Source: Taxawa tesnikishii (nom. ined.)
Lineage: Eukaryota > Ascomycota > Dothideomycetes > Dothideales
NCBI GenBank assembly: GCA_030247885.1
Contig: JAPDRO010000026.1
Location: 124,001-188,000 of the forward strand
Direction: 5' to 3'
DNA length: 64,000 nucleotides
The translations under genes and the position numbers were made by a program. The notes below the pieces were generated by a model. It was not told where the DNA came from, made no database searches, and worked only from the letters and a program-made list of their open reading frames with translations. How positions within the stretch are numbered: position 1 is the first letter of the stretch; every line of letters begins with the position of its first letter. Positions 765 through 61,692 of the stretch are shown here, piece after piece.

Positions 765-1660
765 TCAGCTGCTGGTGGAGGAAGTCGGCGAGTGGTGGCT
801 CCGTCTCGCTTCCTCTTGGATCAACTTCTCCACCAACTCGTCCGAGTGCGTGCCATCCACCTCCCTCGACGCTCTGGCGCCAGCAGTGAGATAGCCGTCC
901 GCTCCTTCAAGCTCGAGCGGTGTAACGGGGCCCGGACTACCCAAGGGCACCAGGCTGGGAGTCGTTGGATTGTCGCGTGGTGGAGGCATGGAGCCTCGGT
1001 GCAGGGCTAGTGTCTCGCGCTGGTAGAGGTAGAGCTGCTTCTGCGCTTCACTGTACATGCGCTGCTGTGCACGTGGGGATACGGGCGGCTGAGGGCTGTT
1101 GGGCCCCGTCGCGGGCGTATTAGCGGTCGACGAGTGCTGCGAGGCGAAGACGGCGGGGTGGAAGCGGGGAGTGAATGCAGCTTTGGCGCTCCTGGTCGTC
1201 GCGGTGCCGTGTTGGCGCTGCGCGGGTGCAGTCCTCCCCGGGCGGCTGGTGGGAGCATCATGCCGTCGTGTCTAACTGGGGACTCGAAGCGTGGTGAGAG
1301 AGGGGTGGTGGGCCGGAGCGCTGGGGACGAGCGTGGAGAGGGCATCCTGGCGCGAGGAGAGAGAGGACTGCGGGACGGAGACGGGGATATTCCTCGAGAA
1401 GGAGCCGTCGTGGGCAGAGCGCTGCGGGAGAGTCTTTCTATCTTGTCGGCCAACTTGGTGCTACCGGGGGCAGACGCCGTGCCCCAGCGGAGGTCGATGG
1501 TTGTACGTAGTTATCTAAGGCTAGGGTTCACTGCTGGAAAGCGTCGAGCGAGTCTTTGTGCTATTATAGTGGCCTGACCGTGGAATGTTCTACCGCAGAC
1601 AGGGCAAGAGTCCAAGGGTAGATCTTGGGCTTGGGTGGAGGTGGGCTTTGTGGATTTTAT
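765..1660 (-). CDS. Ser/Pro-rich protein with CPVCGRTF zinc-finger-like segment (model incomplete)
   Basis: Unknown function. Reading on the minus strand from about 1660, the frame gives a CPVCGRTFH segment, which resembles the start of C2HC zinc fingers of the CxxCGRxF type. An in-frame TAA at 1511-1513 follows, so an unresolved intron or error lies here. Next comes a long Ser/Pro/Arg-rich part (LADKIERLSRS, many SP dipeptides) and a conserved-looking tail containing QRMYSEAQKQLYLYQRETL and TPLELEGADGYLTAG, with the stop at 765-767. The frame slips at the C run 1236-1239; one extra C joins both halves smoothly. No ATG start could be placed, so the 5' end lies further right or in a missed exon. 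The tail composition looks like real coding sequence; the zinc-finger reading is inference. Confidence 0.5.
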
Positions 1661-1864
1661 TCAATCGAGTCAAGCCACCCGAGCAGTTTCCAACCCAGCG
1701 GGTGCAATGATGGTGTGTTGGCGTGTATCTGTACTGTGCCGCTTCAAACGGATCTGCGGTCTTTTGCCCTGCAGCGTGTCTGTTTACCGTGAACCCTCGC
1801 ACAATCTGCAGGGAAGCGAGAGGGTCACCTTTCCAGAAGTGCTTTTTGGCTTTGAGTCGAAGCG

Positions 1865-1972
1865 CTTGGTCTTGGGCTTGGTCTTGGTCTTGGGCTTGGT
1901 CGGGATTGCGGCGAGCAGGAGTAAGGTGGGGCACGGCGCAACAGGAAGTCAGGCACAGGCACAGGCACAGGC
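1865..1972. repeat. Two short tandem repeats
   Basis: From 1865 to about 1901 a CTTGGT/CTTGGG hexamer is repeated, and from 1951 to 1972 a GGCACA hexamer is repeated about 3.5 times. Neither lies in a gene I can support; the long ORFs across them are products of the repeats. Confidence 0.8.
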
Positions 1973-2230
1973 ATCCGACCTCGTATCACAGTACCGTACC
2001 CATCTTTATACGAGCAAATGCCATGCCACATCCAACGGCCGTGCCGTGACTGTTTCTGTGGCCCACGCCGGTCGAGTCTGGTGTTTCCTTAGAAATCACA
2101 ACGTCTTGGTCAGCCGCTGGAACACTCCAGAGGCCGGTAACAGTGATGGCGTGCTCTAGGCTTGTCGGCGAGTGAGCGCCCCGACGTCATTCAGAACGAC
2201 AGCGACGGTGACGAGCTCGGACGCTTCTTC

Positions 2231-2266
2231 TTCCTTCCTTCCTTCCTTCCTTCCTTCCTTCCTTCC
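2231..2266. repeat. (TTCC)9 microsatellite
   Basis: Nine perfect copies of TTCC, directly preceded by CTTCTTC. It is a pyrimidine/purine mirror tract in a gene-poor interval. Confidence 0.95.
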
Positions 2267-4127: not shown

Positions 4128-5148
4128 ATGGACATTTCCAAAAGATTGACCCAACAGACCTCTTCTCGGCCAAAGACCAGGTCGTAGTCATCACCGGCGG
4201 AGGTACAGGTGCGCCCAGCGCCCATAACTCAACACGATATACATACAGTACTAACTCCTCGCCGCATAGGCATCGGTCTCGCCTTCGCCGCCGCCCTCGC
4301 CAGCTCCTCCGCCCGCAAAATCTACCTCCTCGGCCGCCGCCTCCAAGCCCTGCAATCCGCGGCCTCTACCATCAACCCCTCCGTTATCACTGCAATCCAA
4401 TGCGACGTGACGTCCCCTGATTCAATCAAATCCGCAGCCGAGCAGATCGAGAAAGATGTTGGCTATATTGATGTTCTGATTAACAACGCCGGCGTCGAAG
4501 GTCCCCGTCACACGGGCATTTACGCTGCCTCTAGCATCCACGAACTGCAATCCATACTGCTTTCCGACTGGGAGGGCTGGGATATGGCGTGGCGGACAAA
4601 CACGGCCGCTGTCATTGGGGTTTCGGCCGCGTTTTTGGAGTTGTTGGATAAGGGAAACGAGAGGAGGGGTTGGGTCAAGGGGAAAAGGACGATTCAGCAG
4701 CGTGCAGAGGGTGCAGAATACGATAAGAACGATGAGCGGACAAGTCAGATCATCACGGTGGCTAGCATCAGTGCGTTCAATAGGCAGGTGACGGCAGGGA
4801 TTGCGTATACGGCGAGTAAGGCGGGCGCGGTGCAGATTGCGAAGAGTATGGCGCATTTTTGGCGCCGTGGGGGATTAGGAGTAATGTCATTGCTCCAGGA
4901 CGTATGCTTCTCTTCTCTTTCTCTATGTTGTGTTGTCTTGGCTGACGATAATAGGATTCCCGTCCGAGATGACGGCTGGTGCGGCGACGGTGTTCCCGGT
5001 CGATCAGGTTCCACACGGCAAACCCGGAGAGTATGAGGATATGGCGGCTACGATATTGCGGCTTGTTGGCAGAGGAGGCGCTTACATCAACGGCAATGTG
5101 GAGATCTTGGATGGTGGAAGGTTGAGTGTCATGCCTGGGACGTATTAA
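4128..5148 (+). CDS. Short-chain dehydrogenase/reductase (SDR), three exons
   Basis: NAD(P)-dependent oxidoreductase of the classical SDR fold; substrate unknown. Exon 1 carries VVVITGGGT, intron 1 (4209-4269) has a TACTAAC branch point, and exon 2 resumes with GIGLAFA, giving the TGGGTGIG nucleotide-binding motif. Further on are NNAGV, the catalytic Ser in ITVASISA, and the Tyr/Lys pair in AYTASKAG. Intron 2 is 4902-4954 and exon 3 ends ILDGGRLSVMPGTY. The frame breaks at the G5 run 4869-4873: the expected IRSNVIAPG reads in another frame, and one added G restores it and matches both intron phases. The start is uncertain: the conserved N terminus (KIDPTDLFSAK) is open back to 4061 without an ATG, while the ATG at 4128 is out of frame, so a short upstream exon or another one-base error is likely. 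Confidence 0.85.
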
Positions 5149-5822: not shown

Positions 5823-5827
5823 GGCGA

Positions 5828-13662: not shown

Positions 13663-14568
13663 TCAGAAGGCACCCCTAAATTGATCCAATATCTGTCCTC
13701 CAACCGTTCTCCTCCTCCCAACATCCTGTCCCTCCCTCTGCGCACCCTCAACCCCACTCGCACTCGCCGCCTCACCCTCCATCCTCCTCCTCAACCCCTC
13801 ATACCTCTCCCTCTCCCTCCTCTTCCCGCTCCAGTCCGGGATCCGCCAGCTCGCCGCTCCAGGCAAGATCTCCATCCTATAACCGTACCCCACCAGCCAA
13901 CCAATTCCTGCGGCGACCGCACTGCCCGGTAGCTGGCTCAGCGCGAGCTGGAGGGGAAGGAGGTAGGATGTCGCCTTCGAGGTCAAGATGACGCCGGAGG
14001 TTGCAATGTCGGGGTCGGGTGTGGACGAGGCGCTGAGACGGTATTTGTAGAGATAGGGTATCGCGGCGTGGTATTGTGCAAGGAGCGCGAAGACGATTGG
14101 GGTTGGGCCTGCGGGGAGGTAGTTTATGTTGTTAAGAGAGAGGGGGCGGATGATTGCTGCTAATAGTATCGGGGAAGTAATGTGGTATACGGTAGTGTCG
14201 ACAGTAGGAAAGACTATTCAGATCATGCGTCAGCATCCTGCCCAACTCCTGGCCCTTTTTCTTCCATCTTCCAGCTACTGAATGACAGGTGGCTTAGAAC
14301 GTACACCGAACTTCCGCGACCCCCACAACCGCTCAATCACCCTTAGCTGGTACAAAGTCATGGCGGCGAAGAGCACCTCGGTCGAATTCGTATAGCAGAG
14401 TTGCCAGGTCAGGAGCCGCCATAGCTGCCTGTAGTCGCGCAGATGCGGCTTGACAGCGATCCAGAAGTAGTACTTGGTATCTGTGATGCTCGCGAGCATT
14501 GAGCAGACGACCACGCCGACAACAAGGAAGCGCGTGATGGGCGCACTCGTGAAGCCGGAGGCTAACAT
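13663..14568 (-). CDS. dscB: Dsc2/DscB-like rhomboid pseudoprotease subunit of the Golgi Dsc E3 ligase
   Basis: Resembles Dsc2/UBAC2, a multi-spanning rhomboid-like subunit of the Dsc ubiquitin ligase that supports SREBP processing and membrane-protein quality control. Exon 1 (14568-14305) encodes SGFTSAPITRFLVVGV, ITDTKYYFW, LWRLLTWQLCYTNSTEVLF and ERLWGSRKFG, all typical of the family. Intron 14214-14304 has a GTACGT donor. Exon 2 reads SFLLSTLPYTTLLP and then changes frame at the G run 14171-14174 (C run on the coding strand). One more base gives PPILLAAIIRPL and an exact fit to 271 residues. The end (GGQILDQFRGAF) lacks a full UBA domain. Several hydrophobic segments are visible. Confidence 0.85.
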
Positions 14569-15435: not shown

Positions 15436-16660
15436 ATGGCACCGACTAAGCGCAAGAATTCGAGGGTCAGCGACGGCGAAGTGTCATTCGCCGGACAAGG
15501 TATGCACACGTGATCGACCACCGATGATCCGCTCCACTGATAAGACGTATCAGGCGGCAACAACTGCGAACTTACCTCGACCAACAACAAGAAGCCTAAG
15601 ATGGCTGCTTCCTCAGCCAACGGTATGGATAGGCCTGTTGCAGTTGTGGGGTGCCGGGACTGACGGAACTGACTGTGCTCCAGTAGAGTCAATGGATACC
15701 CAGGATGAGCCAGCTCTGCCTTCGACCGCCTTGTACTTCTCCGCTGCAGAACGACAATTTGTAGCTCGATATTACAAGAAGAACTCCAACAAGGCGCGCG
15801 TAGAGGCGACCGACACCATGATGATGCGGAGGAGAGGCGCATCAGCGCGGTCGCAGCCATCGACTGGGAGAAGCTTGGAGAGTTACTCAGTGTTACTTCG
15901 TTCGAGGCTGTTGGGGCGGCTCTTGGCAAGGTCATCCTTGCAACTTCCGAATTCCTCAAGTTGGGAAATAGTGAGAAACGCCGCGTGAAGTTCGCGGAAA
16001 AGACTGCATTGCGGTGTGTGGCTGCCATTGCTCCTTTCATGAAACAAAAGGCGTAAGTGACAGGAATCTCCCCATTTCTGAGAAGCATGAGCACTTGTGT
16101 GGAAAGTAGCAGAGACTACCAAGTCATCGCCACGAACGATGACGATGCAGTGGCTGAGTGGTCGGATAAGCAGCGCAAGGTCGACGGCCGTGAAATTCCC
16201 TATATGCCTACTCTGATCACCTCCAATATGTGTAAGCTTGTTCCTACACTTACAACAAAGACCAATTGTGCTGCAATAGCGGACCGCGATCCCTACCCCT
16301 GCTGTATTCGCAGAACCGTGCTAGACAACTACCAGACTGTCGTCAAGGAAGCCCGCGAAGAGGCAAGGGCGTTCACGGATTTGGCCGATTGCTTCGAACA
16401 GTTGATAAAATCACTCAGTGACGCTCCAGACGGTACCATTGAGGCAGTCCATGGTCTTCTTAGAACTGTCCGAGGAGCCAAGAGAAACCTCGACAATGCG
16501 GGTGCACTGGCGGACATCGTCACTGCTACGAAGGGTGCGTGAGAGGGACGACTTACGTCGTGTCTTGCACACAGACAACGCTAGCGAATGCTATTGCCGG
16601 CTGCTCAAGGGGAACAGGGCACAGCTTCGAGGTGCTGTTGCTGCTCAGGCGAAGAACTAA
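15436..16660 (+). CDS. Unknown protein, six exons
   Basis: Function unknown. Exons are 15436-15499, 15554-15622, 15684-16052, 16110-16231, 16280-16534 and 16575-16660; all junctions are GT-AG and in phase. The N terminus is basic and Lys-rich (MAPTKRKNSRVSDGE, NNKKPKMAAS), compatible with nuclear location. The middle is helical (IDWEKLGELLSVTSFEAVGA, LGKVILATSEFLKLGNSEKR), and the C-terminal half is a long helical stretch with VVKEAREEARAFTDLADCFE. In exon 3 the frame changes around 15820-15830: TDT reads before it and DDAEERRISAVAAIDWEK after it, and one missing base in that exon restores both the frame and the exon phase. No domain is recognised. Confidence 0.7.
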
Positions 16661-18036: not shown

Positions 18037-21000
18037 TCATGTCACCGCATCGGGTGGTGGGATACTATCGACGTCCTCAATCTCGTGTCCAGACCGTGTT
18101 TCGACAACTATCCTCCGGCCACGGTCAGTCTTTGTGACACCATCGCGACAGGCGCCAAAATCGAGAACCTATTACGAATGTTAGCATCACTCATCTCTCT
18201 ATAGGCAATGAGCTTGTACGAACCTCAATGTAGGTCAGATTGTTCCGCTGCACCGCCGCGACGCATCGCCTGTCATCAAAGCGGACCTGCCATACACCAC
18301 TCAGATCCGTCAACAAATCCCTGACACACTCTCCGGTTTGGACATTCCACATCTTCAGCGACTTATCCGAGCCGCTGATAACCTTCTGACCATCGTGCTG
18401 AAAGCACGTGATGGCTCCAGTGTGGGCCGAGAGTGTAGAGCGACATTGGCCGTTCTCCGGGTCCCAGATGCGCAAGGTGCTGTCGGCAGCAGCGCTGACA
18501 AGGCGCTCATGAGAGAGATCCAGAAGACCGACGAGGGAAGTGTGGCCTTCGAGGTTGAAGAGACAGACGCCGGCATCGAGAGACCATACCTTGACCAGAT
18601 TGTCCATTGATCCGGAGATGCATCTACCACGGGCGTGGTCGAGCACGACGCTGTACACCTTCTGGGTGTGTCCTTGGAGTCGGTGGACGAGATCGCCGGT
18701 GGAAATCTTCCAGACACGTACGTTGCAGTCGTAGGAACCGCTGACCAGAGTGTCGCCGTGGGCTGCAATCGCGCGGACTGAGTTGTGATGACCAGACAGA
18801 GTACGAAGAGCATATGGGTTGTCGCTGTCGTTAGCTGGCGGGCCGGCTTGGTGAATCTCTGGGTCACCAGGCTGGGGAAGCTTCCAGACACGCAGAGACG
18901 AGTCTCGGGAACCTGTAATGATCAAGGGCTCTTCAGGCATCATGATTGGAGTGCCATTGGGGTTGATTCCAATCTGAGTAGGCTTGAGGATGACAAGGCA
19001 TCGGACAGTGGAAGTGTGGCCCTGGAAAGTCTGCAGGCATTTCCCTTTCTTGATGTCCCACACCCTGACGGAGCGATCAGTAGATCCAGAAACCAGAGTG
19101 TTGCCGTCGTAAGCCAAAGCCCAGACGCCACCTTCATGGCCCTCCAGCTTGCTTCGCAAGACGCCAGTCTTGGTGTCATAGATGTTAATGTTTGTATCAT
19201 CACTACCCGTAATAATCTTATCCGAGTCGAACAACAAGCAAGTAACCACATGGCGATGATGGGCGCGGAAGGCCAGATGATGAGGACGAGCATCTTCCCG
19301 CATCCACCCTTTGCGGATCATATAGTGTCGCTGGTAGATCGACTTGAATAGATGGAGACTACGCAAGCTCGACAGTCCCACCTCTGGATTGGGCACCGCC
19401 TTCGCAGCTGCACTTGCGTAAGCCATTGGTCCTTGAGCAGTCTGCAAGTCTCGAATCCAGGCAGGATATTGCTCCTGAGGATTCGCTGACTTCCTTTTCT
19501 GTCGCTTGTGACTGGTGGGCTTGACGTTGGCCTTCCTCTTCGCTCTGGTGTTCCGCACAGAGGTGGAGGATGCCGCGTCGTCACTACTGACGGAGGGTCC
19601 AGGCATTGGAGTCGGAGTTGTAGGCTCAACTTCGTGTCGGGAGTGACGATGCGCTGACACTTTCGGCACACTCAGATCTTCCTCATACCCGTCTAGCCCT
19701 GGAATCTGCCAGCCCCAGCCCTCTTTGACAGCGCGCTCGACCTCCCCTCGGGCAACTGGAAGCCGTCCCGCTCAATGAGCTCCTTCCATGCTCTTTCGTC
19801 AGAGTTGATCAGATGTCTCCACTTCTTCGAGACTTGTGAGGCTCTGCACAGGCTTTGCGCATCCAAGAACTTGGTGATTTGGAGGCCCAACTCGACTGGA
19901 AGAACGTTGAATGGGTCGCACTTGAGGGCTGGATTGACAACTTCAGCCACAGTCTGCAAGGTGTTCTTGGCACATCGCCGCAGCATCTGGTAGATCACGT
20001 AGGTTTGCATCTCTGACGGCATGGCGTCGAAAGAATCGATCATGGTTGGGACGTCCATAAGTGAAGGCGGTGCTCGTCTTGCTCTTGCTTGATCGACCGC
20101 TCCGTTTTGCTGCTGGTTTAGATGTGGGGCAATTGCCATCCCGGACTGCCTTCTGAGCATCGTTTCCTCCAGATCCATGGCAGAGACCTCGCTCGAATCC
20201 TCGTCTTCATTGTTCTCAGTGGCTGCGAAGCTAGCAAGGGGATGGCTGCGTGCAAGGTTGGCTGCAGCAGTGACTGGTGACAAGCTGGGACTGGGTAAAC
20301 TGGCATCTTGCTGCGAACTAGTCAAAATGCCAGGCAATGCTGGGCGCCTGTATTCCTCCTGGCTGGAGAAGTTCGACGCTACCGGCTCAAGATCAGTTTC
20401 AGCAATTGGAGGAGTCGCAGTAGCTCCACTACTTTGGGCCTCAACTTTCGCTGCATGACCACGACCATCTCTTGTACGGCCCTGAAGCGTCTCAATTGAA
20501 GGACCAAACCACGCATGGACGCGCGATTCGTCACCAACGACTCTGTTCGTAGACTTTGATCCTTCAGCACCTGCAGCCTCTGTCCGTGTGGTATCGAAGT
20601 TTGCACTGACGTTGCCTAATATGCGGTTCTGATCGGTCCCAGCATCTGTATCTGGTGTTACCGGCGATGGACCGCTTTGTATCCTATGCCTTGACATTTC
20701 CGCCTTCTCTTCCAGCCCAGAATCGTACGACAAGCCGGAATAGGTGCGATGCAGAAGGGAGCGAGGTCTTTTCCTCTTGTTCTGGAGGGCAGCAAGCTCA
20801 GCCGCTTCTGCCAGACTTGGTGGAGAGGGTGAACGTTTTCGGGGCTTCAGAAGCTGGCCTTCTTTGGATGCACTTGGTCGTAGTGCCTGCTTTCCCAGAC
20901 GGTTTGGCATGTGATTCTCCTGGGAAGACGTCGCTTCTGTCCTGATTGTGCCGTTTGATGCTTGAAGCAGACGCTGCTGTTGGTGGTGCTGTGGTTCGTG

Positions 21001-21516
21001 ACCCGTTAGCATGGGCTGATGGCACGCTTGAGATCCCTCATTCTCTTCTTCTGAAGCTTGGGTTGGCCGGTATAGTGTACTCACGTCATGTAAAGAAGCA
21101 TTTGCATCCTCCGCCTCTTTGTATACCGTGCGTCTGCCTCCGACTTCAAATCCAAATCTTTTGATCGAACTGGGCGTAGGTGAGAAAGCAAGTGGGTACT
21201 GCTTAGGATCCCTTTCGTAAAGATCTCTTGGAGGCTTGATCTGAAGGGGCGGGAAGGATATGGTAGTGGTTGTGGTGGTCGTGACGATTGTCTGCTGGGT
21301 TGCTGGACCAAACGAGAAGTGTCCAACCGTGGTGTAGGGAGGTGCCATTGTGGTGGTAACGGTCTGCTTCGACTCGTGGTGAGGCGGCTGAGAAGCCATG
21401 GCGTCGGGATACTGCTGGCCAGGGGATGCTGAAACGAGAGAGCGTGTATCTTCGGTGTTAATGGCAGGTTGATCGTGGATGTGAAGTTCTGGTCCGTGGT
21501 ATCTCGGGGGCTCCAT
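18037..21516 (-). CDS. cdc4: Cdc4-type F-box/WD40 substrate receptor of SCF ubiquitin ligase
   Basis: Substrate-recognition subunit of the SCF ligase, which marks phosphorylated cell-cycle proteins for degradation. Exon 1 is 21516-18224 and exon 2 is 18168-18037, with an intron 18169-18223 containing TGCTAAC. Residues 1 to about 480 are disordered and Ser/Pro-rich. The F-box (FNVLPVELGLQITKFLD, ASQVSKKWRHL) lies at about 545-590. Eight WD repeats follow (for example GHEGGVWALAYDGNTLVSGS, GHTQKVYSVVLDHA, AHTGAITCFQHDGQKVISGS), matching the eight-bladed Cdc4 propeller. The last exon gives VLDFGACRDGVT. Between F-box and WD part the frame breaks at the C run 19744-19747; one more base gives EGEVERAVKEGWGWQIPG and 1141 residues. 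A linker with KRKANVKPTSHKRQKRK is a likely nuclear signal. Confidence 0.92.
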
Positions 21517-22757
21517 GAATCGCAGCAGATGATCCTAGCGGATAGGCCACGCGAGGGCGACGCGAGAGATGGCTCGTGACAGCGAGTGCACGCGTGCAGA
21601 AGCCGTAAGAAGGAAGAAACAAGTTCCAATCTCCCGCTGTTGGCCGTGTGTGTGCCAAACGCAGGGCACCGTACCTGCCGGCCTCCTCGTACGGTCCGTC
21701 GTTATCGATGCACCCAGAGATCGCTAGCAAGCCGTCATGTTCTTTGTCCGGTGATATCTAGCCCGTCGGTATAGAGCCGCAGCTGCACATGAGCTGCTGC
21801 CGGCCGGACGGAAAGTTGCGTTGGCGGTGGAAGGGGTGTTTGGCGGAAACAGATGTTTAGAGGAGGGGCTGTTGCTGGTGGTGGTGGTGGTGGTGGTGGT
21901 GGTGGTGGTGGTGGTAAGTAGGCTGGTTACGGTAGGGCAAGGGCAAGAGGAAACGCCAAGCCGGGGGTCGCCACAAGCTAGCTCCTTCCTCCTTTGACAG
22001 TTCCACTCCCGCTTCACAAACAGTTCGTCACAACATCAACAGTGCACAGATGAAAGCAATCTCACTATCACCACTTCGAAGCGCGGAAAGCAAAACGTGG
22101 ATTTTCATGGCTTTGGTTGGGCCGCGTATCTAACTATCTCTTCGTTGCACCACACGAAGGAGGGATTTGCACGTGAACCGACGCAATCCGTGCTCGGCAA
22201 TCCTTGAGCCAGACCAGAAACCCGGTCCCGAGACTCTTGTGGTGATCGCATACCCAACCATAGCGGGACATGCACCATCTCAAATTCTCGTGCTGCTATG
22301 TACGCGTCTGTCTTCTACCAGTCCCTGATGGACGCCGCAAATGCCAAAACGCCAGTACAGCAGGTCACAAGATCAAGTGTCGTGCGTGGGTTGCTGTGCT
22401 GCCTATATGTGCCGATTGCTGATAACGAGGGAACTCAATGTCGGCAAGCAGGTGTGAATGGGACTCAGGATATGAGCCGGATATTAGGGCGGGTGTGAAG
22501 GAAAATGAAAATAGGGTAAGAAAATGCTGAATAGGGGAATCCAGGTCGACGAGCGAAAGTATCCGAGGTTCGTAATGCACGATGATGTTAAGCGCACTCT
22601 CAGATTCGGGGCGAAGTCTCGGAGGGGAAAGGTGTATCCGGCAGCGTCCACGACATCTCGCACTCCGATGGCTGCGTATTGTTACCGGGGAAGTATTGGT
22701 TGACATCAAGTAGTACAAGCTCCGCTGTCCTACACGATGTCGTAGACTGCATCTGTT
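21517..22757. other. Intergenic between Cdc4 start and YTH-gene stop
   Basis: Holds the Cdc4 promoter side with the TGG repeat and the 3' end of the YTH gene. Short ORFs here have no ATG-led protein-like content that I can support. Confidence 0.5.
21876..21915. repeat. (TGG)n trinucleotide repeat
   Basis: About 13 perfect copies of TGG, 360 bases upstream of the Cdc4 start codon, in its probable promoter or 5' UTR (reads CCA on the transcribed strand). Confidence 0.9.
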
Positions 22758-25700
22758 CTACTTGTGCTGCATATGAGCGTCAAGGCTGACACCGCCCTGA
22801 CCAGCTGCAGGCTCAGCTTTGCCCTGGTTTGGGCTTGCAACAAGCTTATCAACCCAAAAGTTGCTTCTGGAATCCATAGAATCCTTCGCTGGCTCGTGGC
22901 GGGCACGGTGCGAGAAGGAAGGTCCCTTTGGCTGTAGGAGATGTTGCCATGAGTGCCCTGGCCGCTAGAAGCTGGAGCGCTCTGCACCATGTATGAAGAG
23001 CCTTGGAAGTAAGCAGCACGTGGTAAGCGTGTAGCGTCAGGTTGAAGGGTGGCGGATTGACTGTTGATCTGCGCCATGTTCTCCGTGACATTCGCACTGT
23101 CAGCGTGGCTTACAGCGTTCCTCTGGCTGTTTCTGATACCAGCTGTGGGCGAGATAGGAGATGCATTCAAGAGGCGATTTGGGTCGAAAGCGGGGTGCTC
23201 GCGTTGTGCAATGGGACGCCTCCCGCCTCGGTACGGGGAGATGAGTAGACTGATGGAGTACTAAACGGCCGAGGACCCGGACTTGGTGCATACTGACGAG
23301 GAAGCGGAGCGGTCGGTCCAAACCGGCTAGATGATGTGGTATCGCCAACGTGGTATTTTGGGGGAGGTGGGGGCATACGAGGACCAAAGGCGGGAGGGTT
23401 GTTTTGGCGGTATGGTCTGCGCAGGCTGGGAGACGATTTGGCCGGGCCAATGCGCCCTCTGCCCGTACCTTGGTGAAACCACGTAGGGTTGTGCGGATTC
23501 ATCTTAGGTCCTCTTGGGACCTGGGAGGGGAAGTTGTTCATTTCACCGACTCCACCACCGTGAGACTGCGTAAGCTGATTCTCGAAAGGCTTGGCCTTGT
23601 CGCTGTTGACGTAGCCTGGAGAGACAGGCGTCGCTGCAAGAGGCGTGATGGTTCCATCAGGGTGCACGAAGGCTGGGACCATCTGGAGTTTCGGCTCGGA
23701 GTTCACCCGCTCTGCAGGTATAGGTGGTGGAGGGTGGAACGTAGGCGGTGGTGGCAAGGTTCCGTCTGCATCTGGACACAGTCTGCCATAACGTCCGTGA
23801 GAAGCCGCGGTGTTGTGCTGTCCAAAGCTGCTGTGATGCTGCGGATCGCCTTGACGGCCCTGGTTATGTCCAGCATTCGCACGACCGCTGCGATGGCCAC
23901 TGTTTGTTCCGTTGTTACGGCGGTAAACCGACTTGTCGGCAAAGTTGTATCCTTCAAGCGGCTTGGCGAGAAGGTTTTGCAAATGAGGCGTCTCGACATA
24001 TGCTTGTACGATTGCGCGGCCCATGGGCTCAGAGTAGCTATTCAGTGTCAGCATTACTCAAAGGCAAAAATGAGCAGACATGCCCAATTACATGTCACTC
24101 GGAGATTCTGGAAAGGACAGTACTTACGCCATGCCGTTCCACATCTGCGTAACGGCGTCGCCTTTGGTATCTTCATCGACGTGCTTGATCAGATCAAAAG
24201 GCACGATCTTGCAGAAACGCCAGATGACCTCAATAGCCCTGAACGAGGTTAGCTACGTTGGTAATGCCATAAGGTAAAACCGAAATTTACTCAGAGTATG
24301 CTTCGCCGCCTGCCCAGAGATCCGTCATATGGTTAGGAAGGTACCTGGCCATCTCGGCGATGCCACAGAAATGCTTGCTACCTCTCGTCAGGCATGATAA
24401 ACAGCATAGACTTTAGTGGAAGTCATACCTTCCCGGAATGGAGAACATGAGATAAAGCCGCTCGCCGTTTCCAGCCTTTTGGATTTCCTCAAACATTGAC
24501 ACGATGCGAGTGACTACAGGCGGCATACACGCCCAGAGGCCGTGTCTCAGGGACAAGATGACGTTTTCTATCTTGTGGGCTTTGATAACGATGACACGAC
24601 TCTGGAGAGTGTTAGTAGTGACGAGCACTCAACAGTGAAGAGCAAAACTTACACCCCAGGGCATCTGGAACATCTCCGGGTTCATTGGACCCTCCACGTC
24701 AAATGCTCCTGTAAAAGGCTCCTCAAACCACTCACTATTCAACTTCCTAATCTTGAACGACCTGCAGTGACTTCTCTCAAGCCAAACAGGTGGCTTGGGG
24801 TTCCTGGCCTTGGGCTTTGATTGAGGAACAGTGACAGCCGTTGATGGCACCAGTGAGCCAACTTGAGCTCTACCAGAAACGTCATCGGGTGTAGAAGTGC
24901 TCTCTCCGGTGTTCGTCGGGGCGTGTGAGCTTGGCTTGCCAATAATATTCTTGGGTGCGTCCTTGTTGTAGGATGGGCGACGGTCAAGTTCTGGGCGAAT
25001 TCCGCCGGAAAGTTGGTTCTCAAAAGGCACAGCTAGCTCGATGAAGCGGCGTGGTGTGCTTTCAACTGACCGTGGTGCGAACTCCCGGGACGGCAGCGAC
25101 GTTGTATGCGTCGGTTCTTTTGCAACAACGCGGGAAGGTGTAGAAGTGTCCTGGGTTCCACCACCAACATTCGACCCTGGGGAGGCCTGGCAGTTGCGCC
25201 CGAAGCCAGTGTCGGAGTCCAGACTAGAGATACCAAGTGGTGTGCGCCCATTGCTAAAGTCGGCGAAAGACGGGCTGTGAGGAATCGTAGGCAGCCTCTG
25301 AAGTGCTTGGAGATTGGTCAAGACGCGGGGACTTGCACTGACGTATCCGGGGAAGCCCTGTACAGGTGTTGGGAAAAGTCGCCCGCCGTGGCTCGCAAGC
25401 TTGCGCCGCTGCAATCGAGGGGCGTCTTAGGATATTGAGTTGTAGGGGTGTTGCCGTAGTTGATCAGAGGGTCAGAGCCCATGCGTGGCGTATTGAGAAA
25501 TTCGGAGTCGCGCTGGCTCTGCGTCTGCACGAACGATCGGATAGTCTGGTTCATGAGACTTGACGCGTTCGTGGTGGAACTTCCATTTGCAGTTGTAGCT
25601 GGAGCGCTGATAGATGGTTGAAGCTGACGGCGGTGTGGGACCTCTCCAAGAGGAGGAACTGCATAGAAGTCTTGCGCGCGCAGTTCGGTGCGCTGGATGT

Positions 25701-40164: not shown

Positions 40165-41796
40165 TCAAGGCTCTTTCACTGGGCCAGTGTCCTTGTCCTT
40201 TGTTCCGAAGCCGCTATCCAGGTTGTGTGCTGAACCCACCTCCTCATTCTTTGGAATAGCATCTCTATCCTTCATGAGCACTGTGCCCATCTCCTCATCC
40301 TGTGGTTTCGGATCGGCATGTTCGGTCTTGTCGCTACGGATATCTGGCGATGTTGCTGCATCCGGCTCCGTCCGATTGCGTGCCATTCTAACCATGACGT
40401 CCATGACTGTGGGTCTTCTAGGAGACGAAGGCCGCCAGAACACCGACAACGTATTGAAGACTAGCCGAATGATATCAAATAGAAATGCCAGGGGTCCAGC
40501 ACTCTTCTGCGTGCCATGTTCGACAGGTTGTCCAAGTATATTAGCAGAACAACCACGGTCACTAGGGGAATGCCCGTGGCCCAGAACATCCAGAACTCGT
40601 GAGCTCCCGGAGCGTAGTCATCTGCCATGGAAAAATTCCTGCCATGAGAGTAAGCGGTAAGAAGAGACCACCGAGATATGTGACACGGCTGATGGCGCGT
40701 GCCTCGGACGTCTCGTCCTTGATTGACCGATGTCTGACCGTATCCAGCATTGAATTCCATGCTTTCGACTGCAGACGCAGACTATACTCTACAACCATAA
40801 GCTGACCTGATCCAAGCGCATCTGCTGAACTTCGACTCAGGGCGCTTTGTGGATAACGCGCTTTTAGACAGCTCTGATAGTTGTTGCTCAGACAAGTCTC
40901 GAGATTCGCATTCAATCCTTGCAAGATGTCTTTGTCAGCTTGCGTTAAGCCTCTCGAATTGAATGCCATGTCCCGTTTGATGTCTTCCAGAAAGCGGAAG
41001 AGGTGCTCGCATTGTAGCATTATGATTTTGTCGACGAGCGTAATCAACCAATATGGGTGAGAGCTCTTTGAGTACTCCGGTGGTCTCGTTTGCATAACAT
41101 GCGAAAAGAGGTCCATAAAGGTTGGCGTGTCCGCATGCAATTGAGCGCGGTCGCTCGATCTAGGCAGTGAATCCACGAGCAAGCCTGTTCATGTCAGTCT
41201 CTGGATATCCCAAATAAGAGTCAATACACAGTCAGATCCTCGGTCCCATAAATCGACGTGACGCATGTATGTCGTGTTTTTCATCTTGGAAATGCCCTCG
41301 TGTAACCGTTGTACTTTCACATTGGGAAATAAGTTCGTTGGATCAACAAAGGCTTTGGACGATGTGGAATAAGGATACCAATATTCATGCCTGCGGCCGT
41401 TGCCTTCGACAAGTGCAGAAAAGGGGCCGGCGAGGAATACAAGATCCTGACATTCATCTTTCGCGCGCTGACTAACGCAAAGGATCCTCGCCGGTATCTG
41501 GAAAAATTGGGCGAGTAGAGAGGTGTAACGGTTCTGCAGTATGTCTTGCTCGGACATTATGTACAAGCGCTGGCATGAACCTTCGGACTGAGGTGGTCTC
41601 GAGCGCTGCTCGAAATGGTTCTGCAGTTGCGTAGGATCGCAAAACTCGGTATAACGAGGACCTGATTCTGAAAATTCCCAGACACCAACCCGACTGAGAC
41701 CGAAGCGCTTTTGCCATGACCGCTCAGAGGGTAAGGGTCGCTGTTGATGTCGCGAGCCCGACGGATGAGGCGTGGTAGCCTCGGGGTGTTATTCAT
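40165..41796 (-). CDS. CorA-like divalent-cation transporter, two exons
   Basis: Membrane protein of the fungal CorA-like family. Exon 1 is 41796-41230 and exon 2 is 41184-40165; the intron is only 45 nt (41185-41229, GTGTAT...AACAG, with GACTGAC). The soluble N-terminal part includes QRLYIMSEQDILQ and DVLWDRG-type sequence (VDLWDRGSDC). The membrane pair near the C terminus is RVTYLGGLFLPLTLMAGIF followed by SMADDYAPGAHEFW and IPLVTVVVLLIYL. The canonical GMN is not seen, so ion selectivity is open. Three apparent base losses (41783-41786 right after the start, 40631-40635, 40491-40494) are each mended by one base, and all phases then give 529 residues. The tail is acidic and disordered. Confidence 0.82.
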
Positions 41797-42288
41797 GGAT
41801 GAAATGCCGGTTGTGTTTCAAGGCTGTGATTGCGGGGACTTGCTGAATCAACTCTGCGTTGTGCGGTCCGTATATATACTGCAGCCTGTCCTTGCAGCCT
41901 CGTGCGGCTGAGCATGCAAGCTGACATCTGTCCCTTGATCTTTGACGCATGTTGCATATGGCCGTTCAACTACGGCCGAGAAGATGCAGTATCTGTAAAG
42001 CAACATCAAATCCCCGGCGGTCAATCGAAGGGCTTGATAGACGTGAACTGCAATACGTGTACATTGTTGTTCCGGTGTTTGTTTGAGTTTGGGATACCTC
42101 CCAGGACGATAAGATCCATGATTAGATGCAACCAAATACGGTATGGTCGGCTTCGGGTAAGTGTGGCGTCATAGAATGTTATATGTTCTCAGGACCTCGA
42201 AGGCGAAACCATTTCACTCACTCTAACCACCTGCCGCTTCCTATTTAACTTTCATTTCTGGTTCATTCCTGGTTTGTTCCTGGTCTTA
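41797..42288. promoter_or_regulatory. Divergent promoter of CorA-like and DUF1992 genes
   Basis: About 490 bases between two divergent start codons. A CATTTC/TTCCTGGTT-rich stretch lies right before the ATG at 42289. No known site is recognised. Confidence 0.4.
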
Positions 42289-51950: not shown

Positions 51951-54687
51951 TCAAAACACCTTCTTGGCCCTCTTCTTCGCCGGGCTAGAGAGTCCCGGCA
52001 CGAATTCCTCCTTCTCAACTACCGCCTTCTCCCTCTCTATGCCCGCTTTCATGACCAGACTCTTCGTTGGCCGTTTCTTCGCGGGACTGGCCAAGCCAGG
52101 AAGGTCAGCAACCGCACCTACACCTTTTGAGGACTCCAGCTTCAATGGTTCGAGCTTCGGTGCTGCAGCTCTAACCACGGGGATACCCGTCGTCTTTGGC
52201 GTCGAAAGACGATTTTCCTTCGGTTCAGTGACTGCAGGCGAGGGCACGAGGTTGAGCTTGCGCGGGACGGGAAGCTTAGGCATTGGCGCTCTCTTCGCTG
52301 TTCCCGCAGGAGGCTTCACTTCGAGCACTTCCACATCTGACGGTAGAAGAGAAGTGGTCGAGGAGGTGGTGGAGGAGGAGGAGGAGGAGGAGGAGGAAGA
52401 GGAGGAGAGACCTTTGGCAGGAGTGGCGATGCGAGAGCGTCTTTTGCCTACTGAGACCGCCTTTGCCTTTTCCAGCTCGACCATTCCATCCCCATATTGG
52501 TCTCCGGTAAGAAGAGTAGGCTCGGGATTCTCAGACTGGGAGTTCTCGAGCTTCTCAGGCTCGGGAATTTCAGGCTCCTCGGCGATGGCTTTGCCGGGCG
52601 TGCCTTGACGTAATGCGGTCGGGCGCTTGATTCTGGACTTCGGCTTGGATGGAGTTTCGGGTTTGGTTTCTACTGCATCGTTGGGCTTTGCTTTGGCCTG
52701 TGGTCCTGGCTGCGAGTGCTCAAAGTCAAGTGAGCCTGGCTCGCTATTGAATTCACTGTAATAAGCGAGCGTTTCGTCCCAATGCACACTCTTCGAACCC
52801 CTTTGGGCGGATCAATAGGCAGTTCAGCGGGCATGTTGATAGTCGCGGCCTCTGCTGCCAGCTTTGCGATCCGTAATACCGGGAGGACGCTTCCGCCTTT
52901 GTTCTTTCGGGTGTTGTTGCGCGTCGTCAAAGCCAGTTCCTGAGCCTCCGTCCGCTGAAGCGGCACCTTTTCAGTGGGGCCTCGGATAGTGATCTTATTG
53001 GGACCATTCCCACCATCCGTCGCCGCTGCGGGTGTGAATTGAGGCTTGCGCAGACGACTTCGAGAACTTCTTCGTATCGTTTTCGCATCTCCCATAATCG
53101 CGGTACTTTCTGCTGACTCACCGACGTTAGAGTATGGCTTGTCGGTGTCTGGCCCAGATTTGAGTGTATCGAGCACAACCTCTTCACTGGGTGATTTGTG
53201 AGGAGACGGGCTGTTTGGATCCAGATCCGCCAGGACCTCTGGCTTCACGGGGAAGCCAAGGCTTGACGTATGGTGTTCGAGTCGCGGCGGTTCGATAACG
53301 ACTCGCGTTTGTGGATTGCTCGAGATTTTGTTGCCTTGTCCGCTGCAGCCCGGTTGAGGAATTGTCGTAGGAAAGCCGTGTCATCTGAGATCCTTGGTTT
53401 GGTGCGAACCTCATCGTTTGGCGTCACGTCTTCTGGCGGTGCTGAAAGTGATCGACGGGCACCCCTGGAGCGCTTTTCTGGAGAGGAAATGACCGCTTGC
53501 TGGCCCGGAGCGGGTAATATGGTAAAACTCAAACCTTGGGCGGAAGTGAAGGTATTAGTGCTGGGAACAGGCGTCGAAGGTGGCTCGACCATATTCAATG
53601 TAGAATCCTGCAGTTTGGCTAGTTCAGCCGAGCTCTTGTCGCGGATCTCCAAGTCGTTGCTCATCTCGGCTTCAAGAAGCACCTGGATACGTTGTGACAA
53701 CTCAATGGTTTCCCGAACCTTCGTTGTCTCTGGAGGAGGGGTGAGTGGTGCGGCCACATACTTATGCGCTTTGGAAGGCGGCATGGGGAACTGAACGTGT
53801 GGTGATCGGTTTGGAATGTCCTCAGTCTCTCCACTCTCTCTCTTGTCGTCATCCTGTCCTTGTAGCCCTTCGCTAGTCTCTTCAGACCATTCCACAGATA
53901 CAACCGTATAATGTGGCTGCTGTTGTATGTCGTCTAAAGCTCCAATATCTTGTACAGCAACTTTCTCTAACTCGCTCACTTCATCGCCCTCGACTGTCTC
54001 ATGTAGATTCTCAGTTGCATCGTCAGATTCAATATCGGACCAGACTTCCGCATCGTTGTCTTCTTCATCTTCCGGTTCTTGAGCATCCATGCGCTCGACA
54101 GACAGGACCTTTATGGTTTTGACTGGCGTACTCTGAGCTGTAGCTGTTTGCTCCGACGAACGCTCGATCGCGATGTTCTTTACAGGACGTTTCCCTTTCT
54201 TAAGTCAGCACTCATCCTCACCAATTTAACCACTGTCCATGAGCGACTGTACGCAATCTCTAGATCCGGGCAGACGTACGTAACGGTGTTCCCTTCTTCC
54301 GATCCCAATCGCTCGCGCGCGCATTCTGACCAAATGACGTGTGCAAACACATCTTCTTGACAATCTTCTTCGGCGACTGAACACTGGTTCCTTGCACAAG
54401 CCCCTTACGCGCTCCAGCGCCGCACTCTTAGGCAGTGTTTCTCCCTTCTGAATCGTCCTGTTTGACAGGGGCGCAGTGTTGATCCGTCTCCAGACTTTTC
54501 GAACTCGTCGTTTCTGTGCGAAAGGGGACTGAGGTACGCGCTCCCATGCGCGAGGTATCCTAGAAATATTGGTCGGGAAAAGATGGGCGACGTCGCGCTG
54601 GTCCCAGGAGGCGTCAAATGGTAGCACATTGATGTCAGGTTGTTTGTCTCGACCAGAAGTACCCGTGGTATCCCCCATAGTATCCAT
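51951..54687 (-). CDS. Large disordered, probably nuclear, protein (about 884 residues)
   Basis: Function unknown. ATG at 54687 (MDTMGDTTGTSGRDKQPD). Exon 1 54687-54280, intron 54195-54279, exon 2 54194-51951. Ordered-looking blocks are VLPFDASWDQRDVAHLFP, AQKRRVRKVWRRINTAPL, SPKKIVKKMCLHTSFGQNA, ETIELSQRIQVLLEAEMS, QELALTTRNNTRKNKGGSV and SKSVHWDETLAYYSEFN. The C terminus carries two copies of PGL(A/S)SPAKKR, each ending in a basic patch, as expected for nuclear signals or CDK sites. Three one-base losses (54401-54404, 53249-53252, 52798-52801) are inferred; with them both exon phases fit exactly. A role in chromatin or the kinetochore is only a guess. Confidence 0.68.
52361..52408. repeat. 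(GGA)n repeat encoding polyserine
   Basis: A GGA/GGT-rich run inside the minus-strand gene. On the coding strand it gives a stretch of about 12 Ser then Thr/Ser, so its length may vary between strains. Confidence 0.85.
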
Positions 54688-56181: not shown

Positions 56182-56520
56182 TACTCTACCATAGCGGAAA
56201 TGTTTACTGCGCGATACCCCAAATTCAAACAACCTGTCCCCGAATCAACTCCGTTCATTCAATTGTCCCTTGGTATTGCGTCCCAATCCTTATCAACCAG
56301 GTGAGTGCTCTGAGCCCCATATCATTTGTTTGCGAGGATGTAATACACAGCTGGCACCAGGCCGAGAAAGACTTGTACTCTTTTTGCTGCGGATTAGCTT
56401 GCATGGACACTGTCCTATTTTCTGATCGCTACCCTGCTGCAGCTCAATGTTGATCGCATGTTCGTTCAAGTCCTTGTGCTGACGTTGATTGCTTGACAGC
56501 TATCTGCAACTCCCATTCTG

Positions 56521-56528
56521 TATAAATA
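56521..56528 (+). promoter_or_regulatory. TATA box of aha1
   Basis: TATAAATA 33 bases before the aha1 ATG. If used at normal spacing it implies a very short 5' UTR. Confidence 0.5.
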
Positions 56529-56560
56529 CCATTTCCACTTCGAGCAACGAGCCCGCAACC

Positions 56561-57674
56561 ATGGTGCTACACAATCCAAACAACTGGCACTGGGTGAACA
56601 AAGATGTCTCGACCTGGACAAGAGAGTACCTTGAGAATGACCTGAAGGGAATCAGCGCAGAGAAAGATGGCGCTTCGGCCGAGATCTCCAAGGTCCTCAG
56701 CATGGATGGTGATGTTGAGGTGGCTCAGAGGAAGGGAAAGGTCATCACAATCTTCGACGTCAAGCTTCAACTCGAGTACACTGGTATGGCAAAAGACAAC
56801 TGCCTGCGAGGGTAGTGGAGACTGACAGCGCCCTCCAGGCAAGAACAAAGACGGTGAGGATGTAAGCGGCACAGTCACTGTACCCGAGGTAGCCCACGAC
56901 ACCGAGGAAGATGAGTACGTTGTACGTCTCCTAGTTCCCATACCCACGCTCGTGTTGTCCCAGGGTTCTGACGATTCGCAGTTCGAGATAGCCATGTACT
57001 CGGAGAGTCCAGCAAAGACGCCAGTGAAAGATCTAGTCCGCAATCAGATTACGCCTCAGCTGCGGGAGCACTTTCAGAAGATTGGTTCGGTGCTGATGAA
57101 GGAGCATGGCAAGGACGTGCAGCATGCGCCTGGCTCCAACCCATCCTCCGGCTTCTCAACCCCTAAGGTCTACAGCAACTCCTCCGTCAACAAGCAGGGC
57201 GATAACCCGAAGGACTCATCCAAAATCTCCACTTCCACGTCCGGTAAGGGTCCGTCGGTGAACGTGACGAGTCTGACCGATCAGGAGGAGTTCCGGACCA
57301 CGGCTGCAGAGTGCTACGCCACCTTCACCGACCCACAGCGGATAGCAGCCTTCACTCGCTCACCACCGAAGGTGTTCGAAGGTGCGCGACCTGGTGGAAA
57401 GTTCGAGCTTTTCGGCGGAAACGTCAGCGGAGAGTACGTCGAGCTCAACGAGCCAACATCGATCGTTCAGAAGTGGAGGTTGGCACAGTGGCCTGAGGGC
57501 CACTACAGCACACTGCGCATCAAGTTCGAACAGAACGATGTCGATGCCGTGACTGTGATGAGAGTTGATTGGGAAGGTGTTCCGATCGGCCAGGAGGAGC
57601 CCACTAAGAGAAACTGGGGCGAGTACTACATCCGGAGCATCAAGACGACCTTCGGATTTGGCACCATCCTCTAA
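56561..57674 (+). CDS. aha1: Aha1, activator of Hsp90 ATPase
   Basis: Co-chaperone that binds the middle and N domains of Hsp90 and stimulates its ATPase cycle in the cytosol. Exons 56561-56783, 56839-56921 and 56964-57674, all in phase; 338 residues, normal for the family. The N-terminal domain begins NPNNWHWVNKDVSTWTREYL, the typical Aha1 signature, followed by GKVITIFDVKLQLEYTG joined to GKNKDGEDVSGTV. A linker rich in Ser/Pro (about 150-205) leads to the C-terminal AHSA1/START-like domain with VTSLTDQEEFRTTAAECYAT, GNVSGEYVELNEPTSIVQKW and NWGEYYIRSIKTTFGFG. No frame break. Confidence 0.97.
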
Positions 57675-57865
57675 TACAAGAGCACGGAGAGTGGTCACCG
57701 TATGGCGCAGTACTAGAGGAATCAACGGCTGAATGAGAATGTATGACAAGCTGGACTAGTATGGTCGGCGCAGTTCTCACGATGGGCATCAAGACATAGA
57801 CAAAAGCGTGAGCCTATTCGATCGAATTCCTTTTACCAGCCGCGCCGCACTTGCACAGCATCTCC

Positions 57866-58656
57866 TCACTTGAATTCAAAATTCCTTTCCAAAACCCAAT
57901 ACCCCCTGTCATACCTAAACAGACTCAGACCCTCGACAGTCCCGTCGCACCCAACCCACTCGCTCTCAACCTCCCGATACGCCTTCTGCACCTTCACTTC
58001 ATCATCGACTTTGTTCATGATTGTGTAATGCGCCCTAAACCCGCCAGCATCCTGCTCACTCAGAAACTCCATCCACGCCTTCCTCAACCTGGCATGCACA
58101 TCCCTCGCCTGATCCCCGCCCTTTCCCTTGGGCACCCCGATCGCAATCCCCTTGCGCAACCGGAACGGATCCGCGGCCCGGATGGGGAACTTGGGTGTGG
58201 ATGAGGCGATCTCGGAGAGCGTCGGGACGATGGCGGAGTCGAGCTTGCTGCCGGGTAGCGCGTGGAAGAGTGTTATGTGCGCTTCGAGCTTGTTGAGGAA
58301 GGAGGGAAGTACCGGTTCCGTAGCGAGGTGAGTGTCTGATGGTGGGTCGGATCCGTGAGGAGCGTCAGGACGTAGACGTAGTTTTCGGGAGCGTCGGTGC
58401 GAGGGATGTGTGCTGGCGAAGGGGAGCGGCGGCGCGGTCGGTGACTGTGGGAAGCTGGGGATTGATCGTGGTGTCGCGATTGCGGTGGTCGGCGTTGGTG
58501 ACGAGCGTCGTTGGTGTTGGGTTGGTTGTCCTGAGCTTGGGATGAGGGCTGGGATGCTATGTGGTTCTCTTCAGGGACACTGGGAGCATTGTTCTTCTGT
58601 GCAGGACCGGAGGAGCTCGAGAACAGCGAAGCGTATGAGCGTGGAGGATTGGACAT
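57866..58656 (-). CDS. 2H phosphoesterase (2'-5' RNA ligase superfamily)
   Basis: Predicted cyclic phosphodiesterase or RNA-end processing enzyme. ATG at 58656 (MSNPPRSYASLFSSSSGPA); an alternative upstream ATG gives a longer, poorly conserved leader. After a disordered Ser/Pro/His-rich N terminus of about 95 residues comes NYVYVLTLLTDPTHHQ, then the two HxT motifs of the fold, AHITLFHALPG and AHYTIMNKVDD, and the end RYDRGYWVLERNFEFK. The frame breaks before the first motif at the run 58304-58306; one more base gives YFPSFLNKLEAHITLF and 263 residues. Confidence 0.82.
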
Positions 58657-59274
58657 GATGCGATTCGTAGTCTGGCAAACGGGTTTCCTTAGCAAGAAGG
58701 ATCGCATTAACAGCCAACTAGCTGGCTGCAACTTGTATGACGTGTCTCAAGTGTTCGGAACCTCAATCGGTTTTGTAACAATTGCCATGCCTAAGGGACG
58801 AAGTGCATCGACTACAACAAGATCGCAATGACGTTTACACCCCGCCGATTACTTAAGGACTTTCTGAAAGGAGAACATCTTAGCGTCAGGTACAGCCGTT
58901 GCCCTGCGGACGCATGCATGCTCCGCATTCTCCGGCAACCGTTGAAGGATGGTATTGGTTCAGCAAAGGCACGGTACGCAGGTCAAGTTTTGAAGGTGTT
59001 GTTACAGTTATCGACAGCCTGGCCAAAATCACGACAAGAGCGCTATCTACCTTATGCCTTCCACTATGCAACGCTTCCCGACAACAGTAAAAAAGAAAAA
59101 GGAAGACAAAAGAGACTGTGAGTGATTTTCTAAACCCCTCATAAGAGCGAGGATCTTCCCGGCGACACAATCTCTGTCGAGCCGCCCACAGAACGCCGCA
59201 ACACCCAACAGGCACTGATCCGAACCAGTAGTCTCCATCAACTGTACAAGCTAGGACGCTGAGTCGCACTCATA
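58657..59274. other. Intergenic between 2H enzyme start and Yme1 stop
   Basis: Both neighbours read leftward. Promoter of the 2H gene and 3' UTR of the protease gene; no other feature seen. Confidence 0.5.
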
Positions 59275-61692
59275 CTACGGCGCCGGATACGGTCTCGGCC
59301 CGTCCTCTTCTCCATCGCCTTCACCAAAGCCGCCGGGGTTGGGGCTGCCCCCAGGCCCCCTTCCACCATCAGGGCTTCCCATGCCACCGACCGGTGGCGG
59401 TACGCCGAATGACGGAGGCAAGAGCGGCTCGGGAACCTTGACTGCAGCGCCCGAATCGGCCTTAGGCTTCTTCTCCGGCAGCTTCTCGCCCCTGACGACG
59501 GCCTCCATCTCGTCTTTGCCCAGAGTCTCGTATTCGACGAGTGCGTGAGCGAGACGGTCCAGGCCTTCCCGGTTCTGGGTTAAAAGCTTCATGGCGCGCT
59601 CTCTGCCCTCCTCAACCAGCCGCCGCACTTCGTTCTCGATTTGTTGCTTGGTCTCGGACGATAGCTTCGAGTATTGAGAGTTGAGATCAATGTTTCCAAG
59701 CACGTCGCTCATGCCCGCTTGTGTCACCATCATATAGGCTATCCTGGTCGCGTTCTGAATGTCGGATGAGGCGCCTGTGGTAACGCTTTCGGGCCCGTAA
59801 ACAAGTTCTTCGGCAACCTTGCCGCCCATGCAGACGTCGATTTGCGCCATCATCTCCTGCTTTGTCTCCGAAACCTTGTCAATTTCTGGAAGCATCTGAG
59901 TCACACCCAGAGCGTGGCCACGCGGCATGATGGTCGCCTTGTAGAGAGGTGTGGTGTGCTTGGTCAACATCGCTACCAGTGCATGGCCGCCTTCATGGTA
60001 AGCAGTCATGACCTTGTCCTTTTGCTGTATCACGGCTGAGCGGCGCTCAGCACCCATCAAGATCTTGTCCTTGGCCCAGATCAAGTCCTCCATAGTGACT
60101 CTCTTAGCCTTGTTCTTGGAGGCGTGGACAGCAGCTTGGTTGACGACGTTCTCGAGCTCGGCACCACTGAAGCCAGGGGTGCCACGTGCGATGATATCGG
60201 CGTCAACCTCAGGATCAATCTTGATATTGCGCATATGATGCTTGATAATGGCGATACGGCCGCGTACATCGGGGAGGGAGACGACGACGTTGCGATCGAA
60301 ACGGCCAGGACGTGTCAGGGCTTTGTCGAGCGATTGCGGAAAGTTCGTAGCACCGATGATGATAACACCGGAGTTTTGGTCGAAACCGTCAAGCTCGGTG
60401 AGAAGCTGGTTCAGGGTTTGCTTGGCGTAGGCGGCATCGCGCTCATGACGCTTGCTGCCTATGGCATCCAGTTCATCAATGAAGATGATGGCAGGGGACT
60501 TACTACGGGCCGCATTGAAGAGGTCGCGAACGCGCTTCGCACCAACACCAACGTAGACCTCGTCGAACTCGGATCCGGACATGTAAAGAATGGGACGCCG
60601 GCTTCACCAGCGACGGCGCGAGCGAGCAAAGTCTTGCCAGTACCGGGAGGTCCAACCAGAAGTACACCCTTAGGAAGCTTGCCGCCAAGAGTCGAGAACT
60701 TGTCAGGTGCCTTCAAAAATTCAACCAACTCTTGCAGCTCCTCCTTGGCCTCGTCGCAGCCGTGGACATCGGTGAAGCGGGTAGTCTGCAGCTCAGGCTT
60801 GGCTTCGGCGTTTTGCGATCCGCCGACCTTTTTCAGCACACCGGTAGCTTCGATAGTCAAGGTCACAATAACGAGAGAAAAGTAGCAGACCAGACCGAAA
60901 ATCAGCAGGAATTTGACCCATTTGAATATGGTGCTGCCCATTGATTCGTCCACGACGACGTAGAGTGGTTCATTCTTAGCCCCAGAGCCAGCCCGGGAGA
61001 GGGAGACGTTACCGCCCTGCATCCTCGCAGAAACAGCTTGACCGACAGCCTGCATTTGTTCCGTGCTCAGATTCCGTCCTTGGCCGCCAGTGGCACTCTG
61101 TACGGCGCCAGTGTTCCCACTCTCGGCTGCTCCTACTCTTTCAAGTGCGCGCAGGTAGACTTGTTCACAGGCGGGGTTTGAGGCGTATCTCCCCGTATTG
61201 TATCTCTCAATCAAAATTTCCGGCATGTTGGCGCGAAGAAGAGCAGAGTAGAAGGCGTTCTGTGCGGTCGCGCTCCGTGGATTGTTGTTCGCGGTTTGCT
61301 CCAGATGAGCCAACAGGTTGTGAGATGTGTTTCCACCATTGCTTGAAGAACCAAAGAGCGTGCGGTGTTGAGTAAGACCAAGGTTGCCCGGGCGTGAAAC
61401 AGCGTTTGGCCTGGATAGACCTGGACGATTGGCAGTAGAGAATTGACGTGATGTGGACTGGAAAGGCGAGGAACCGCGAACGAGAGGGCTAAGCTGCCGC
61501 GTGAAGGTGGGCTGAGTAGCGGAGCGTGGTAGAGTGCGAACAAGCTGTCGCTGCAGCAAGGGCGTCACGGAAAGCCATAGTTCGCTCCTAGCAGCTGCCA
61601 GTTGCTAGGGAAGTGGTGTCAGTGGACTGCTGCTGGCGGAGTGGCGGTGGAAGATGGCTCACCTGTATGATGGCCGGGGCGTTGAATGCCAT
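59275..61692 (-). CDS. yme1: Mitochondrial i-AAA protease Yme1 (FtsH family)
   Basis: ATP-dependent zinc metalloprotease of the inner membrane, facing the intermembrane space, for protein quality control. Exon 1 is only 30 bases (61692-61663, [10 protein letters not shown]); intron 61605-61662; exon 2 61604-59275. The presequence is basic and Ser/Arg-rich. One membrane segment ([20 protein letters not shown]) precedes the AAA module: Walker A GPPGTGKT, Walker [11 protein letters not shown] and SRH with [15 protein letters not shown]. The protease site is [11 protein letters not shown] (HExGH). A Pro/Gly-rich tail ends the 786-residue protein. Just after Walker A the frame breaks at the A run 60585-60587 (T on the coding strand); one more base gives [17 protein letters not shown], the family consensus. 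Confidence 0.95.

Follow-up and report, generated by a model that had tools for sequence, protein, structure and literature searches.

The window that we analyzed is a stretch of 64,000 nucleotides, bases 124001 to 188000 of contig 19, in an assembly of 29.37 Mb in 34 contigs. By Pfam matches, it carries genes for a short-chain dehydrogenase (SDR), an F-box/WD40 (Cdc4-like) protein, an FAD monooxygenase, a 2H (2'-5' RNA ligase-like) protein, and Yme1; a YTH domain (PF04146) was matched at 24419 to 24601. An earlier note on this DNA had proposed these same identities. It had also named a Dsc2 gene, which is weakly backed by DUF1751 and DER1 matches (E values of 0.021 and 0.032), and a CorA-like gene, whose identity was not confirmed, with no PF01544 match found in the window. 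We also observed a C/D snoRNA of Rfam family Afu_190 at 56333 to 56426 (plus strand), a short distance before the gene model (56561 to 57671) of an Aha1-type Hsp90 co-chaperone. This snoRNA is of an Aspergillus type and, together with the short introns of the genes, suggests a filamentous fungus. At 27417 to 29616 (plus strand), a HORMA domain and a PHD-finger match lie in neighboring frames, with no lost-base call at a penalty of -6; presumably, this is a Hop1-like meiotic gene.

The note had listed 18 intervals in which a gene changes frame at a single-letter run. We found that each of the 18 contains a run as described. We followed the reading frame with a three-periodic coding model, which we trained on 339 kb of the same assembly, made up of the window, twenty 10-kb stretches, and 20 short loci. 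The model permits introns, for which it gave a median length near 58 nt; it charges the loss of a base, the gain of a base, and an in-frame stop equally, and it is blind to homopolymers. At each site, we allowed the model a single lost base free of charge, set this against no shift within 200 nt, and recorded the gain in nats. Scoring with several simultaneous free positions left the signs indistinguishable, because two shifts of the same sign equal one shift of the opposite sign, and it was replaced by scoring with a single free position.

In Yme1, the frame breaks inside the AAA domain at 60585 to 60587 (minus strand), where a lost base gained 17.4 nats and an extra base gained 7.4 nats. The domain is split, with profile positions 1 to 35 and 24 to 130 in two frames whose register differs by one nucleotide, and the pieces match residues 3 to 70 and 66 to 246 of PDB 5ubv; the missing base may lie outside the run. 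In the Cdc4-like gene, the break at 19744 to 19747 (minus strand; gains of 15.3 for a lost base and 0.9 for an extra base) falls between the F-box, in the frame from 19696 to 21534, and the WD40 repeats, in the frame from 18194 to 19771, and the two frames overlap at the site. The 2H gene breaks at 58304 to 58306 (minus strand; 8.4 lost, 0.0 extra), and positions 19 to 151 of PF13563 begin at nucleotide 58303, just beyond the run. The FAD monooxygenase breaks in its second exon at 35287 to 35290 (minus strand; 6.4 lost, 0.0 extra), with PF01494 confined to the first exon. Two breaks lie in an unknown gene at 31635 to 34332 that is without a Pfam match at an E value of 0.01, namely, at 32094 to 32097 (plus strand; 8.2 lost, 0.0 extra) and 33664 to 33666 (plus strand; 12.2 lost, 0.0 extra). 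Another unknown gene, at 51954 to 54090, is likewise broken twice, at 52798 to 52801 (minus strand; 4.2 lost, 2.4 extra) and 53249 to 53252 (minus strand; 12.5 lost, 2.4 extra). The gene model at 768 to 1345 breaks at 1236 to 1239 (minus strand; 9.2 lost, 0.0 extra). The SDR site at 4869 to 4873 (plus strand) gained 0.0 in the coding model and is called from homology: the match to PDB 9k8q stops at residue 230, which is nucleotide 4875, and the SDR motif resumes in the next frame.

Three claimed breaks in the YTH gene (minus strand) are weak. The gain was 1.8 nats at 22924 to 22926 and 0.8 nats at 23192 to 23195, with lost-base calls at 22897 and 23173, respectively, at a penalty of -6; at 25419 to 25422, it was 1.9 nats, and the model takes an intron at 25275 to 25342 instead. 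Five claimed breaks on the minus strand were not supported by the coding model. At 14171 to 14174 in the Dsc2-like gene, a lost base gained 0.0 nats and an extra base gained 1.3 nats; a lost base at 14354 (minus strand) gained 4.2 nats. Three sites within 40491 to 41786 (at 40491, 40631, and 41783) gained 0.0 each in DNA labeled noncoding, and that stretch gave no Pfam match at an E value of 0.01 in five pieces. The site at 54401 to 54404 also gained 0.0 in DNA labeled noncoding. As a separate observation, 40168 to 41817 (minus strand) holds overlapping open frames without a coding signal or a Pfam match, with an in-frame stop between 41188 and 41192.

Thus, 10 of the 18 listed frame breaks are well supported, 9 by gains above 4 nats (4.2 to 17.4) and the SDR site by homology; 3 are weak (0.8 to 1.9 nats), and the remaining 5 share with the SDR site a gain of 0.0. 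Of the 2,521 unclaimed runs of at least three letters in the window, 12 gained more than 4 nats (Fisher P of about 1e-15 versus the claimed sites); 8 of them are no farther than 100 nt from a claimed site, and the rest are at 15866, 4135, 4140, and 14354. Of the 12 lost-base calls made in the window at a penalty of -6, 10 have a claimed site no more than 70 nt away. The other two were absent from the earlier list: one near 4136, called at -6 only, and one at 15820 to 15868 (plus strand), called at both -10 and -6, with a gain of 9.5 nats at the run that starts at 15866.

We found that the shifts are mainly losses. Over the 339 kb, the model called 23 lost bases, 3 extra bases, and 0 nonsense changes at a penalty of -10; the corresponding counts were 34, 4, and 0 at -8; 56, 10, and 0 at -6; and 75, 18, and 0 at -5. 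At -7, the ratio was 44 to 5, or about 9 to 1. No stop mutations thus accompanied the shifts at any of these four penalties, though stops were priced like shifts. In the window itself, lost and extra calls stood at 7 to 0, 9 to 0, 12 to 0, and 15 to 3 at -10, -8, -6, and -5, with 0 nonsense calls at -10. We implanted single-base changes at random places and at -10 recovered 95 of 227 losses and 91 of 202 gains; in runs of four or more, we recovered 193 of 482 losses and 181 of 477 gains. In 100 kb of Escherichia coli K-12, analyzed with introns off, the model called 2 lost and 5 extra bases at -10 and 9 of each at -6. Single calls can be false; of the seven E. coli calls at -10, three are no more than 5 nt from a place where annotated genes on the same strand overlap, and one is in an annotated pseudogene. 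The detector is sign-neutral on both the implants and E. coli K-12, and therefore the sign bias belongs to the assembly.

The losses are tied to homopolymer runs. For each of the 44 lost-base calls at -7, we scored every run within 120 nt as a possible place in a conditional logit. The odds for runs of at least three exceeded those for shorter runs about 236-fold (P = 5e-12), and relative to single bases the odds were 28 at length 3, 218 to 273 at length 4, and 331 to 360 at length 5 and more. The 5 extra-base calls showed no preference for runs in the same analysis. A plain count agrees: in 28 of the 44 calls, with about 9 expected, the longest run among the placements scoring no more than 2 nats below the best has at least four bases. 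The note had held that most of the runs are C/G runs of 4. These are the commonest class, with exactly four C or G at 12 of the 18 intervals, and fall short of a majority among the 44 calls, in which G/C runs of length four take 15.8 of the posterior mass, all G/C runs take 28.6, and A/T runs take 15.4. On the coding strand, G (13.8) and C (14.5) contribute alike, as do A (7.6) and T (8.0), and therefore nothing implicates the transcript or the ribosome.

We also searched nine Pfam families over the whole assembly and scored 153 matches covering 95.7 kb (for PF00106, 19 of 224 candidates). Among the scored matches, there were 42 pairs of neighboring pieces, of which 32 have intron-like gaps, 2 are otherwise in the same frame, and 8 have an excess of at most 14 nt. 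The intron-like pairs are mixed in frame (12 lost-type, 9 extra-type, and 11 same), and all eight small-excess pairs are in the lost-base frame. Four of the 42 are exactly -1 nt, in a CCT subunit, an HSP70, and two SNF2 ATPases, and none of the 42 is exactly +1 nt. At the CCT junction there is a run of four G, and at the HSP70 junction there is a run of four A. The other four small-excess pairs (excess of 2, 8, 11, and 14) are ambiguous, and in two of them the gap (35 and 74 nt) could contain an intron.

Outside genes, long runs are scarce. In noncoding DNA, the share of runs reaching the next length drops at five and six, from 0.22 to 0.16 and 0.09 for G/C and from 0.26 to 0.22 and 0.17 for A/T; in introns, with few runs, the G/C shares are 0.24, 0.15, and 0.08. 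This scarcity is support and not proof, because E. coli shows a fall as well, a milder one (0.20, 0.18, and 0.13 for G/C). The pattern is seen genome-wide, in coding and noncoding DNA and on both strands, with the noncoding run lengths as the weaker line. Separately, we observed one G/C run of 13 in the stretch L020 (contig 12, 1500001 to 1510000), even though G/C runs of length 6 or 7 hardly occur (6 in 200 kb).

We calculated the rate as lost minus extra calls divided by sensitivity and obtained 0.29, 0.35, and 0.38 lost bases per coding kilobase at -10, -7, and -6. At -7, there were 9 lost-base calls in 27.5 coding kb of the window and 35 in 143.7 coding kb elsewhere. The count in conserved domains is several times below the coding-model rate. 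Runs of four or more number 5.2 per kb in conserved domains versus 6.9 in coding sequence, and fewer runs, together with short undetected pieces, account for part of the low count. Codon use, the loss of short pieces, or homology-guided polishing could be the causes.

Taken together, the shifts are mainly losses, lie in runs, rise with run length, are neutral to the coding strand, and recur genome-wide in essential genes. We conclude that the frame breaks are very probably errors of a long-read consensus, most likely nanopore, incompletely corrected with accurate reads. The number of contigs, 34 for 29.37 Mb, points to long reads. According to this model, one-letter runs would be read one base too short by the sequencing platform, probably nanopore; the consensus would then drop the base, and the reading frame would change there. 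The organism itself would carry the longer runs. The note had read the breaks in the same way, as uncorrected long-read consensus error, and sign, the tie to runs, the lack of stops, genome-wide recurrence, and strand balance all support it.

Several other explanations would also yield broken frames. Missed introns or wrong gene models can mimic frame breaks, and some of the five unsupported sites are probably of this kind; near 25419, the model itself prefers an intron. However, missed introns are expected to give both signs, as the 32 intron-like pairs do, and the overlapping frames of Yme1 leave no space for an intron, so that misread gene structure is very unlikely to explain the breaks at large. 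Mass pseudogenisation, in which the genes are truly broken and decaying, fits the fact that the assembled sequence does contain broken frames. Against it, decay is at odds with the absence of nonsense calls, with the ninefold excess of losses, and with a broken set that includes Yme1, a CCT subunit, and an HSP70, whose domains are otherwise intact. We consider it highly improbable, in keeping with the note, which had rejected it.

A mutator strain with a mismatch-repair defect, in which the runs have really contracted, would account for losses in runs, on both strands alike, and in coding and noncoding DNA. Mismatch-repair mutators mainly affect longer runs and also lengthen runs, and here essential single genes are affected; this origin therefore seems as improbable as decay. 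Recoding supposes that the runs are truly short and that the ribosome or RNA polymerase restores the frame, and a -1 shift would indeed mend a lost base. However, an XXXYYYZ word occurs within 12 nt at only 2 of the 10 supported sites in any reading frame (background, 3.7% of coding 28-mers), leaving 8 of 10 with no heptamer for programmed -1 frameshifting in that range. A classical slippery word (AAA or TTT) occurs at 1 of 10 in any reading frame (background, 1.8% of coding 28-mers), and the other 9 have none. Further evidence against recoding comes from the coding strand, where G and C, and likewise A and T, contribute to a similar degree, and from noncoding DNA, which is short of long runs as well. 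We regard recoding as an explanation with next to no probability, and the same holds for the wider idea that general recoding at truly short runs serves to decode a large share of genes, including essential genes.

Consensus error of this kind is already published for fungi, and the broken genes here are an ordinary artefact. The figures given in PMC5466710 for a yeast nanopore-only assembly before polishing are 128,050 deletions versus 7,735 insertions, with 79,152 of the deletions in homopolymers, and indels are described there in most genes of yeast nanopore-only assemblies. As here, deletions dominate and are mostly in homopolymers; in contrast to the assembly here, the prepolishing error rate is far higher, and the rate that we found resembles that of a partly polished assembly. 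For nanopore-only assemblies of the filamentous ascomycete Drechmeria coniospora, PMC7500977 places errors mostly in one-letter runs (four bases up), and about one-fifth of the genes tested there were still wrong once long-read polishing was done. In contrast to the roughly 9-to-1 excess of losses here (44 to 5), insertions in runs outnumber deletions in polished Drechmeria assemblies. The yeast account in PMC5466710 likewise describes more insertions in runs with R9 reads, and neither detail matches the present assembly. For other filamentous ascomycetes, PMC9453082 names homopolymer indels as the chief limit on accuracy and as a source of frameshifts; it examines three genes and describes fewer indels once coverage exceeds 75x.

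At -6, at least one lost-base call falls in 10 of the 25 genes that the model places in the window. The sign of shifts under a model with equal penalties, together with a one-nucleotide register between domain pieces, can grade assemblies without reads. For this organism, gene catalogs, counts of pseudogenes, and claims of gene loss based on the assembly would be wrong for many genes, and any finding of a broken gene in this genome calls for a look for a short run first.
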